A DNA stretch of 35,507 bases from positions 1-35,507 of the forward strand of contig PWVB01000084.1 in the NCBI GenBank assembly GCA_003562365.1. The letters run 5' to 3'. A program made the translations under genes and the position numbers. The notes under the pieces are model-generated. The model had not been told where the DNA came from. It made no database searches and saw only the letters and a program-made list of their open reading frames with translations. The stretch's first letter is position 1. Each line of letters begins with the position of its first letter. This document shows, piece after piece, positions 32,411 to 35,507 of the stretch. This DNA is from Anaerolineae bacterium (GTDB lineage: Bacteria; Chloroflexota; Anaerolineae; B4-G1; SLSP01).

Positions 32411-33865
32411 ATGCTAGATCAGATAAAGGCGCACCTCGATCGACTTCGAGCCTCGGGTGCCACCTATGTTGACTGTCGTTGGGTACCTTCCGAAGATGCC
32501 AATGCGCTGACGATGTGGAACGGTAATTTGAAGCAGGCCGCTAGCTCGCGTCAGAGCGGTGTCGGTATTCGTGTGCTCTTCCAAGGTGCTTGGGGTTTCT
32601 CCGCGGCGTCGGATCTGAGCGACCTCGGGATAGTGTTTGATCGAGCGCTCGAGAACGCCCGGATTGCCGCGGAGCGCGTAACCTTTCCGGTGCGCTTAGC
32701 AGAGAAGGACAGCGTGCAGGACACCTTTATCAGTCCCTGTGCTGTCGATCCGTTTGAGGTGCCGCTGGCAGAGAAGGTGGCGTTCCTGGAGCTGCTGGAC
32801 GCGTCATTGAACCAGCGAGGCGTCCAGCAGCGGATGAGCACACTGGACTTCATCCGCAAACAGGTCCATTTCGCCGACTCGGAAGGTAGTGAGATCGGAA
32901 AGCAGATCATCGAGGTCTTTGCCCACATCGGTGTGCGAGGCGTAGATCCTGAAGGGACAGCTCACGAGCGCACGTTCCGTCTGGGTCGCAGGGGGGCGAC
33001 TCGTGGTTGGGAGTCGCTTGATCTTGATCATTTTCGCGAGAATGCCGAGCGCATCGTTAGCGAACTGAATCAGGTCCTGCAGGCTGAGACCTGTCCGGTG
33101 GACGATCGTTCGGTTATCCTGCTGCCAGGTATCATGTTTCTGCAGACTCACGAGACGATCGGTCATCCCCTGGAGCTGGACCGGATCCTCGGCTATGAGT
33201 TGGCATTCGCCGGTGGCTCGTTTGTCACGCTGCAGGACTTTGGCGAACTCCGCTATGGCTCTGAACGTCTGACCGCTCGAGCTGACGCTACGTTGCCCAA
33301 CAGCCCTGGGAGCTTTGGCTACGACGACGACGGTGTCCCGGCCGAAGACAACCTTTTGATCGACCGGGGCATCTTGGTGGGAGCCATTACGGGCCGGCAG
33401 ATGGTTGAGGAGGCCAACGCCAAGGCTCAACGTATCATCTTTCCTGAGAGCAGTGGCGCCAACCGTGCCACCGCCTTCTACCGTGTGCCGATCGAGCGTA
33501 TGACCAACATCAACATCGATCCTGGGTGTGACGGCACCCTCGATGACATCGTTGCCCGCACAGAGCGAGGTATCATCCTCGACGGCGACCGAAGTTGGTC
33601 GATAGGCTCTAACCGCGAGCAGTTCCATTTTGCTTGCGAGATTGGATGGCTCGTGGAAGACGGCAGGGTCATCGATGTCGTCAAGAATGCAACTTACAAG
33701 GACGATACGCTTCGCTTCTGGAATGCGCTCTCGGCGGTGGGTGACGCGTCTACCTGGGAGGTGGTCTACGTGGAGAACTGCGGCAAGGGGCAGCCCAACC
33801 AGGTGATGCAGCTGGGACACGGTATTCCCGTTTGCCGATTTGATGATGTGAGGATAGGAGAGTGA
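32411..33865 (+). CDS. tldD: TldD-like metalloprotease subunit
   Basis: A 484-residue TldD/PmbA-family protein. The active metal site is intact: HETIGH (His247, Glu248, His252, the HExxxH motif) and the conserved Cys457 in ENCGKGQP near the end. In E. coli, TldD and TldE form a barrel-shaped heterodimer that digests unfolded peptides and trims leader peptides of modified peptides such as microcin B17. Other family blocks include SRQSGVGIRVLFQGAWGFSA and NSPGSFGYDDDGVPAEDNLLI. AAGGAGGG precedes ATG. The partner gene starts one base after its stop. No modified-peptide precursor gene is visible nearby. Confidence 0.9.
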   Translation: MLDQIKAHLDRLRASGATYVDCRWVPSEDANALTMWNGNLKQAASSRQSGVGIRVLFQGAWGFSAASDLSDLGIVFDRALENARIAAERVTFPVRLAEKDSVQDTFISPCAVDPFEVPLAEKVAFLELLDASLNQRGVQQRMSTLDFIRKQVHFADSEGSEIGKQIIEVFAHIGVRGVDPEGTAHERTFRLGRRGATRGWESLDLDHFRENAERIVSELNQVLQAETCPVDDRSVILLPGIMFLQTHETIGHPLELDRILGYELAFAGGSFVTLQDFGELRYGSERLTARADATLPNSPGSFGYDDDGVPAEDNLLIDRGILVGAITGRQMVEEANAKAQRIIFPESSGANRATAFYRVPIERMTNINIDPGCDGTLDDIVARTERGIILDGDRSWSIGSNREQFHFACEIGWLVEDGRVIDVVKNATYKDDTLRFWNALSAVGDASTWEVVYVENCGKGQPNQVMQLGHGIPVCRFDDVRIGE

Positions 33866-33866
33866 G

Positions 33867-35252
33867 ATGAGCGACCGCTTCCTGGAGACCCTCAGCCATT
33901 TGCGCGTCTATGCTTTGGACAAGCCATGTGAAATCGCCATCTTCTACCATGAGGAAGCGAGTGCGTTGATGCGCTTTGCGAATTCGGCTGTCTCGCTGAA
34001 CACGACTGAGCACTTGATTCGTCTGGAAATTACTGCCTTTTATGGTCCACGGCGTGCCAGTTACGAGATGATCACGGACTTGAGCGAGCCGGCAGAGCTG
34101 CGGGACGGTATCGATATTGCTGCTGAAATGGTCAAACACGTGCAGCCGCTGACCTATACCCCCACCGTCCCGGAGTTTCGGGAGTCCTTTTGTGACGAGG
34201 CGGCCTACGATCCAGCCTTGGCAGAACTCAGTGGTGCTGATAAACTGGCGGTCTTCAATGCGGCGACTACTGGTCTGGAGACAGAAGCGATTCAGCTGTC
34301 CGGCATATTCTCTAACGGTGCCAACACCATCGCGCAGATCACCACACGCTCGCCGCACACTCAGGTATTCCGCACCAGCGATGCGCAGGTGACTATGGTG
34401 CTGGCGCATAGTAACAAGAAGTGGGAGGTGCAGGCCGAGCAGTCTGCGCAGCAGCTATTGGACCTTGATCCGCAGGCCCTGCGTGAAGAGTTGGGTTTCT
34501 TGGTTGAACGTTTCACCCACGATCCGGCTCAACAGCTGCCCCTGGGGCGTTATGACATCGTCTTTGGCCCGGCGGCGACGGCGACGTTGATCTCCTTTAT
34601 GAACTGGATCGCCGTCAACGGCGGCATGATGAAGCGTGGTTATGCGTGTCTGGACGAGGCGCAGATCGGGGAGCAGGTGCTATCTCCGGAGTTCACACTC
34701 GCAGACGATCCCAACCGGCGCGAGACCTATCCCCAACGTCGGGACTACATGGGCTTGCCTCGTACTCCCTTTCCCTTCTTTGAGGAGGGTATCTTCAAGG
34801 GCTTTGCATGGACTCAGGACGACGCTGACGAGTTCGGCGCCGAGCCAACAGGGCACACCGTTGCTCACAAGAGCCTTTCGCTGTCTGGGGGCGGAGAGGA
34901 TGTTGGCACGCTGCGGGCCCTAGCCTTCGTGCCACGAGATGGTGATCTCCTCTACATTCCCTTCCTGCACTACATGAATGTCGTGAACCCCACGCAGAGT
35001 TTGGTGACGGGCAGTTCCCGCTTCGGGGCATTGCTGCTAAAGCGAGATGGCAGCATCGTAACGCCGTATAACGTGCGTTTGACACAGCGGATTCTCGATA
35101 TCTTTGGTGACCGGTTAGCCTGGCTCTCGCAACAGACCGTTCCCTACAACACTTCCTCAAGCTACGGGGCGCGTAATCCCACGGCCGTCATTGTGCCACG
35201 ATTCATGCGTGTCAACGATTTGTCAATTAGCCACTCGAACCCGACCTTTTAG
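33867..35252 (+). CDS. TldE/PmbA-like partner subunit
   Basis: A 461-residue protein of the same superfamily as the preceding TldD, without the HExxxH motif, as expected for the TldE/PmbA half of the heterodimer. Blocks seen: AIFYHEEASALMRFANSAVSLNTTEHL, TITRSPHTQVF region, YDIVFGPAATATLISFMNW, and a C-terminal stretch SSRFGALLLKRDGSIVTPYNVRLTQRI. ATG 33867 lies one base after the tldD stop, so translation is probably coupled. An AGGAAAGG ribosome-binding site overlaps its stop, pointing to a third cistron beginning at 35268. Confidence 0.88.
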   Translation: MSDRFLETLSHLRVYALDKPCEIAIFYHEEASALMRFANSAVSLNTTEHLIRLEITAFYGPRRASYEMITDLSEPAELRDGIDIAAEMVKHVQPLTYTPTVPEFRESFCDEAAYDPALAELSGADKLAVFNAATTGLETEAIQLSGIFSNGANTIAQITTRSPHTQVFRTSDAQVTMVLAHSNKKWEVQAEQSAQQLLDLDPQALREELGFLVERFTHDPAQQLPLGRYDIVFGPAATATLISFMNWIAVNGGMMKRGYACLDEAQIGEQVLSPEFTLADDPNRRETYPQRRDYMGLPRTPFPFFEEGIFKGFAWTQDDADEFGAEPTGHTVAHKSLSLSGGGEDVGTLRALAFVPRDGDLLYIPFLHYMNVVNPTQSLVTGSSRFGALLLKRDGSIVTPYNVRLTQRILDIFGDRLAWLSQQTVPYNTSSSYGARNPTAVIVPRFMRVNDLSISHSNPTF

Positions 35253-35267
35253 GAAAGGACACAAACC

Positions 35268-35309
35268 ATTAGCCCAAACTACCGGCTAGGTGTCATTGGC
35301 TTCGCCCAT
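35268..35309 (+). pseudogene. N-terminal stub of a Gfo/Idh/MocA-type oxidoreductase, interrupted
   Basis: Fourteen codons from ATT 35268 read (I/M)SPNYRLGVIGFAH, which looks like the start of a Gfo/Idh/MocA dehydrogenase (beta1 strand and the G-F-A-H loop, normally followed by M-H). AGGAAAGG (35251-35258) sits 9 nt upstream, so it was translated, with ATT as a rare start or as a mutated ATG. From 35310 the sequence becomes hairpin-rich and non-homologous. The rest of the gene may continue beyond the element, outside the window. Confidence 0.55.
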
Positions 35310-35379
35310 AGATTTCTCCGCAGGGGACTCCCCGTTTTAACGGGGAGGGGAATGCGGTTCCCCTGTGCATTCCGTAAGG

Positions 35380-35407
35380 TTGAACATAGTTCATTTCGTG
35401 GTACAAT
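35380..35407 (+). promoter_or_regulatory. Promoter giving a leaderless transcript for the right-edge gene
   Basis: TTGAAC (35380-35385) and TACAAT (35402-35407) are 16 nt apart; matches are 4 of 6 and 5 of 6. Transcription should start about 7 nt past the -10, at the ATG itself (35414), so the message is probably leaderless. No ribosome-binding site is visible. Confidence 0.55.
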
Positions 35408-35413
35408 ACGAGT

Positions 35414-35507
35414 ATGAACAAGACACAGACCAGCGTCCGATTGACACAAGAAGCGATTAGATTGCGCGAACTACTGGCAGCGGAGTTAGGCGTTAGCCTG
35501 ACCGCCG
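35414..35507 (+). CDS. Ribbon-helix-helix (CopG-like) protein, 3'-truncated by window
   Basis: The visible 31 residues begin MNKTQTSVRLTQEAIRLREL and continue with LAAELGVSLTA. A short strand (TSVRLT) followed by a helix, then a G-V-S turn leading into a second helix, is the start of a CopG/Arc ribbon-helix-helix DNA-binding fold, as found in antitoxins and plasmid or transposon regulators. The frame is open to the window end. The ATG overlaps the stop of the hairpin-region frame (ATGA). The gene may belong to the suspected mobile element. Confidence 0.6.
   Translation, partial: MNKTQTSVRLTQEAIRLRELLAAELGVSLTA

Follow-up and report, generated by a model that had tools for sequence, protein, structure and literature searches.

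The right end of the window, by which we mean the whole stretch of 35,507 nucleotides analysed here, raises the question of what cut short a gene that begins directly behind a tldD-tldE pair. The window is the entire contig C496 of a draft genome (contamination estimate 4.84%), and its right edge is the end of that contig. The sequence-only reading, made from the letters of the window, had seen there the third cistron of a tldD-tldE operon, encoding a Gfo/Idh/MocA oxidoreductase and broken by a hairpin-ended insertion. We arrive, with a probability of about 0.95, at a member of the IS200/IS605 family that inserted 3' of a CCAT tetranucleotide in a GFO/IDH/MocA gene behind tldD-tldE, the remainder of which lies on a second contig, C332. 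The genes concerned are the following.

32411 to 33865, plus strand: tldD-like gene of the PmbA/TldD family (Pfam PF19289, PF01523, PF19290)
33867 to 35252, plus strand: tldE/pmbA-like gene (Pfam PF19289)
35251 to 35258, plus strand: AGGAAAGG, resembling a ribosome-binding site and overlapping the tldE stop (motif)
35268 to 35309, plus strand: first 14 codons (ATT + SPNYRLGVIGFAH) of the interrupted GFO/IDH/MocA oxidoreductase gene (joined reading frame; homologues)

The tldD-like frame starts with ATG and stops at 33863-33865. The product of tldE has full-length counterparts in relatives, 62-72% identical, and its stop codon occupies 35250-35252; the AGGAAAGG site is present over it, as had been described, and purine-rich sites resembling it stand ahead of the starts of the oxidoreductase homologue genes.

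The remainder of the oxidoreductase gene was found at the end of contig C332 (L180, minus strand), directly behind the right end of an element. Immediately behind it the sequence reads ATGCACGTTAAC… (ATGCACGTTAACGGC; MHVNGL…), and 356 codons stay open to the stop. Joining …GFAH (35309) to MHVN… after CCAT restores a GFO/IDH/MocA frame of 369 residues, with Pfam matches to PF01408 (E 1.6e-17), PF22725 and PF02894, all above the cut-off; both the N-terminal dinucleotide-binding domain and the C-terminal domains of the family are found on the joined protein. About 70 homologues, up to 76% identical, read GFAHMH(V/I)N or a near variant unbroken across the junction. Family members in Chloroflexota and in other phyla, L226, L227 and L309 among them, show 70-76% identity along the entire length of the joined protein; unlike them, the gene of the window is interrupted, has ATT at its start position and sits behind tldDE. 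Within its own genome, the only strong homologue is the one on C332, which lacks just the first residues, and no intact copy was found there. The sequence-only reading had proposed to look for a remainder beginning with M-H, a matching right-end hairpin and an uninterrupted relative: the first is the MHVNGL… frame, the second stands directly before it on C332, and the third are the homologues that span the junction. It had also put the break in homology after the His codon at 35309, and sequence of a repeat element indeed begins at 35310, after CCAT. The insertion falls inside the dinucleotide-binding fold, and the oxidoreductase was therefore most probably inactivated.

On the window side, the element is represented by its left end.

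35306 to 35309, plus strand: CCAT target (left cleavage site), retained in the left flank (listed left ends; empty-site joins in two genes)
35310 to 35507, plus strand: left part of an IS200/IS605-type element, running off the contig (some ten copies, nearly identical, in the source genome)
35324 to 35327, plus strand: putative left guide GGGA (position counting against IS608)
35328 to 35347, plus strand: main left-end hairpin CTCCCCGTTTTAACGGGGAG (DNA fold; conserved in diverged copies)
35349 to 35373, plus strand: second left-end hairpin (GGAATGCG ... TGCATTCC) (DNA fold)

Positions 35306-35507 recur at about ten places in the same genome, most of them at contig ends. Since these recurrences are 97-100% identical and each starts at the same base, the left end is not a product of chance. 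All the near-identical copies share the border CCATAG, by which the listed left ends were located, and diverged copies are present elsewhere in the genome. Among the 60 genomes of relatives searched, none outside the source genome carried this left end; no match was obtained against plasmids, and an Rfam search of the flanks gave nothing above the gathering score. Folded as single-stranded DNA, the left-end hairpins reach z = -3.0, with an equally good fold in 1 of 200 shuffles. The GGGA guide shows departures in some diverged copies. Two aberrant copies were also seen. The last ~70 bases of L017 (C138) hold a copy that has lost its main left hairpin by a deletion between two GCA repeats, which brings CCATAGATTTCTCCGCA next to TTCCGTAAGG; this copy is probably unable to move. 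At bases 120-245 of L019 (C329), a left end of the family lies beside right-end sequences of two kinds of element, in opposite orientation; this is a nested or rearranged remnant.

The other border could be placed just as exactly. The right ends of the tnpB-bearing elements finish in CTCCCCGCTTTAGCGGGGAGAGTCGTCAC or a near variant, beyond which the sequences diverge (27 aligned). The right hairpin, read from the sequence, is CTCCCCGCTTTAGCGGGGAG; GAAG precedes it and TCAC stands at the cut. Near-identical right ends number about 17, as against about 10 near-identical left ends, and not all of them can be paired. A second insertion has the same cut points: its left flank on C256 (L012) and its right flank on C263 (L183) join into a JetC-like protein. 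Its halves match one and the same PADLOC model, at positions 1-204 and 206-729, and the junction is spanned by homologues from twelve other genomes. It follows from this case that the element extends from just behind CCAT to just before the base that follows TCAC, and that the target is not duplicated; the empty-site joins in the two genes are both in frame and leave zero duplicated target bases. A longer target, CCATAG, which is common to the left ends, was considered and discarded: the two reading frames are restored only when the cut is placed behind CCAT.

These borders also bear on whether the contig end could be an assembly error that fused a repeat to the start of an oxidoreductase gene which is intact in the cell. 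The position of most near-identical left ends at contig ends, the places at which repeats defeat assemblers, would fit such an error. It would however have to coincide with a right-hand gene part that also meets an element right end at an exact border, with an empty-site join in frame, with a second gene showing the same, and with a genome in which no intact copy of the oxidoreductase was found. We regard an artefact as highly improbable.

The assignment to IS200/IS605 was borne out as it had been proposed, as an insertion downstream of a short target. The element sits directly 3' of the fixed CCAT without duplication, as seen in the two in-frame joins, and subterminal hairpins are present at both ends (the left folded, the right read from the sequence). 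A Y1 (HUH) TnpA is available from kin, not from the window copy itself: on C293, a diverged left end is followed by a Y1_Tnp gene (PF01797, 5.5e-22) and then by the start of tnpB. The 3' end of tnpB is found in right ends of this type, and the gene is presumed to be linked with the left end of the window. The tnpA or tnpB gene that was to be sought beyond the contig end was located in kin elements; the interior of the window element, and with it the full length and gene set of this copy, was not found in the assembly. The source genome (G000) contains 57 tnpB-type (PF07282) as against 26 Y1 transposase (PF01797) matches. Three or more kinds of right end occur with them, and some of these genes are interrupted by stops.

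IS608 of Helicobacter pylori inserts 3' of TTAC, with A+16/A+17 of its left guide pairing with T-3/T-4 of the target; its cleavage/guide sequences are TTAC/AAAG and TCAA/GAAT, and second left-end hairpins have been described for IS608, ISDra2 and IS605 (PMC5934647). The element described here resembles IS608 in its insertion 3' of a fixed tetranucleotide that is kept in the left flank, in the hairpins at both ends, in the second left-end hairpin, and in the order tnpA then tnpB of the kin copy on C293. By IS608 numbering, GG at +16/+17 would be complementary to C-3/C-4 of CCAT, and in a comparison of letters the right guide and cleavage sequences GAAG/TCAC stand beside GAAT/TCAA. It differs from IS608 in its target, CCAT instead of TTAC, and in the ribbon-helix-helix-like open reading frame (ORF) at the tnpA place of the window copy. 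With the TnpB-only (IS1341-type) elements it shares the probable lack of tnpA in the window copy and a genome in which tnpB outnumbers Y1 tnpA; it differs from them in the small regulator-like gene ahead of a presumed tnpB in the unseen interior.

The start of that interior is visible in the last nucleotides of the window.

35380 to 35407, plus strand: promoter-like TTGAAC-16-TACAAT, immediately ahead of the small ORF (motif)
35414 to 35507, plus strand: small ribbon-helix-helix-like gene (MNKTQTSVRLTQEAIRLRELLAAELGVSLTA...), 5' part only, its frame still open where the window stops (six copies in the same genome; similarity to an RHH_1 protein)

A gap of 6 nt separates the TACAAT box from the start codon of the small ORF (ATG), a spacing of the leaderless type, and in other copies the -35 position reads TTGACC or TTGGCC. 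The ORF is truncated by a contig end in all six of its copies in the genome. A stretch 57% identical to it lies within a complete 48-aa RHH_1 protein (PF01402, 7e-6) of a genome of the same class (L334); there, within bases 1490-2894, the ribbon-helix-helix gene stands directly before tnpB and has TACAAT a few bases ahead of its ATG. A search of the genome contigs with the DNA pattern of the small-ORF start gave no match. The hairpins and the small regulator-like gene of the earlier reading are both seen; the ribbon-helix-helix identity comes through the 57% identical stretch, as the 32-residue fragment has no Pfam match of its own.

The small ORF starts at the same place as tnpA in the kin elements. 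It is likely that the window copy consists of a ribbon-helix-helix-like regulator and tnpB without tnpA; this presumed absence of tnpA would imply movement in trans, by the TnpA of its kin. We lean, with some reserve, towards a tnpA-less unit that pairs tnpB with a regulator under a near-leaderless promoter and that has been spread to ten or more sites by the TnpA of tnpA-tnpB kin sharing its ends. A search for TnpB with CopG or ribbon-helix-helix genes found no relevant paper in the literature collection that was covered. The window copy could instead be a conventional tnpA-tnpB element, with the small ORF a mere leader or chance frame, given that left ends of kin in the same genome are directly followed by tnpA, and on C293 then by tnpB. 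We hold this to be rather unlikely, as the ORF occupies the very place at which tnpA starts in those kin and a similar complete gene lies directly before tnpB in another genome.

In the proposed course of events, the element would have entered as single-stranded DNA directly 3' of CCAT (35306-35309), between the GFAH and the MHVN codons, through a Y1 TnpA presumably encoded by kin elements. C496 and C332, which hold the two flanks, would then be linked in the cell by a single copy of the element, probably carrying the ribbon-helix-helix-like gene and then tnpB, without tnpA, and mobilised in trans. Other TnpBs are known to act on the empty site with a flank-derived guide and an adjacent motif. 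The TnpB of this element could do the same, its guide being taken from the right flank (ATGCACGTTAAC...) and CCAT serving as the adjacent motif. The event itself is an ordinary IS200/IS605 insertion; its one mildly interesting trait is that a regulator-like ORF takes the place of tnpA. It provides a clean case that can be checked and whose empty site is known, from a family member that targets CCAT and resides in a genome full of tnpB genes. If the pairing of regulator and tnpB is real, it would offer a simple case for the control of TnpB expression in elements that rely on the transposase of another. For the host, it means that one oxidoreductase is lost and that the second insertion has cost it a JetC-like protein of Wadjet-type plasmid defence.

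There remains the operon in which the interrupted gene was thought to take part. The gene order TldD, TldE, sugar-type oxidoreductase exists at this locus, but conservation failed: in all 11 relatives with downstream sequence, the oxidoreductase gene is absent behind tldE, nothing downstream of tldE is conserved in the relatives at 62-72% identity, and none of ~107 loci of oxidoreductase homologues has tldD or tldE beside it within the flanks examined. As far as seen, the arrangement is therefore only a local one of this genome.

The start codon told against the operon as well. The start position of the cistron (35268-35270) reads ATT, and no ATG, GTG or TTG follows before the junction; at the equivalent position almost every close homologue has ATG or GTG, and most have ATG. 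This, together with the separation of tldDE from the oxidoreductase gene in relatives, may suggest that the piece was no functional third cistron of tldDE, its start codon having changed from ATG to ATT, either earlier or later than the insertion. We consider this possible though not the favoured view, given the well-placed AGGAAAGG, the strand shared with tldDE, the gap of 15 nt and the 356 codons that the right-hand part has kept open. As a separate observation, relatives of the genus (L305 and L306; G004:C194 and G002:C188) carry three tandem paralogues of this oxidoreductase.
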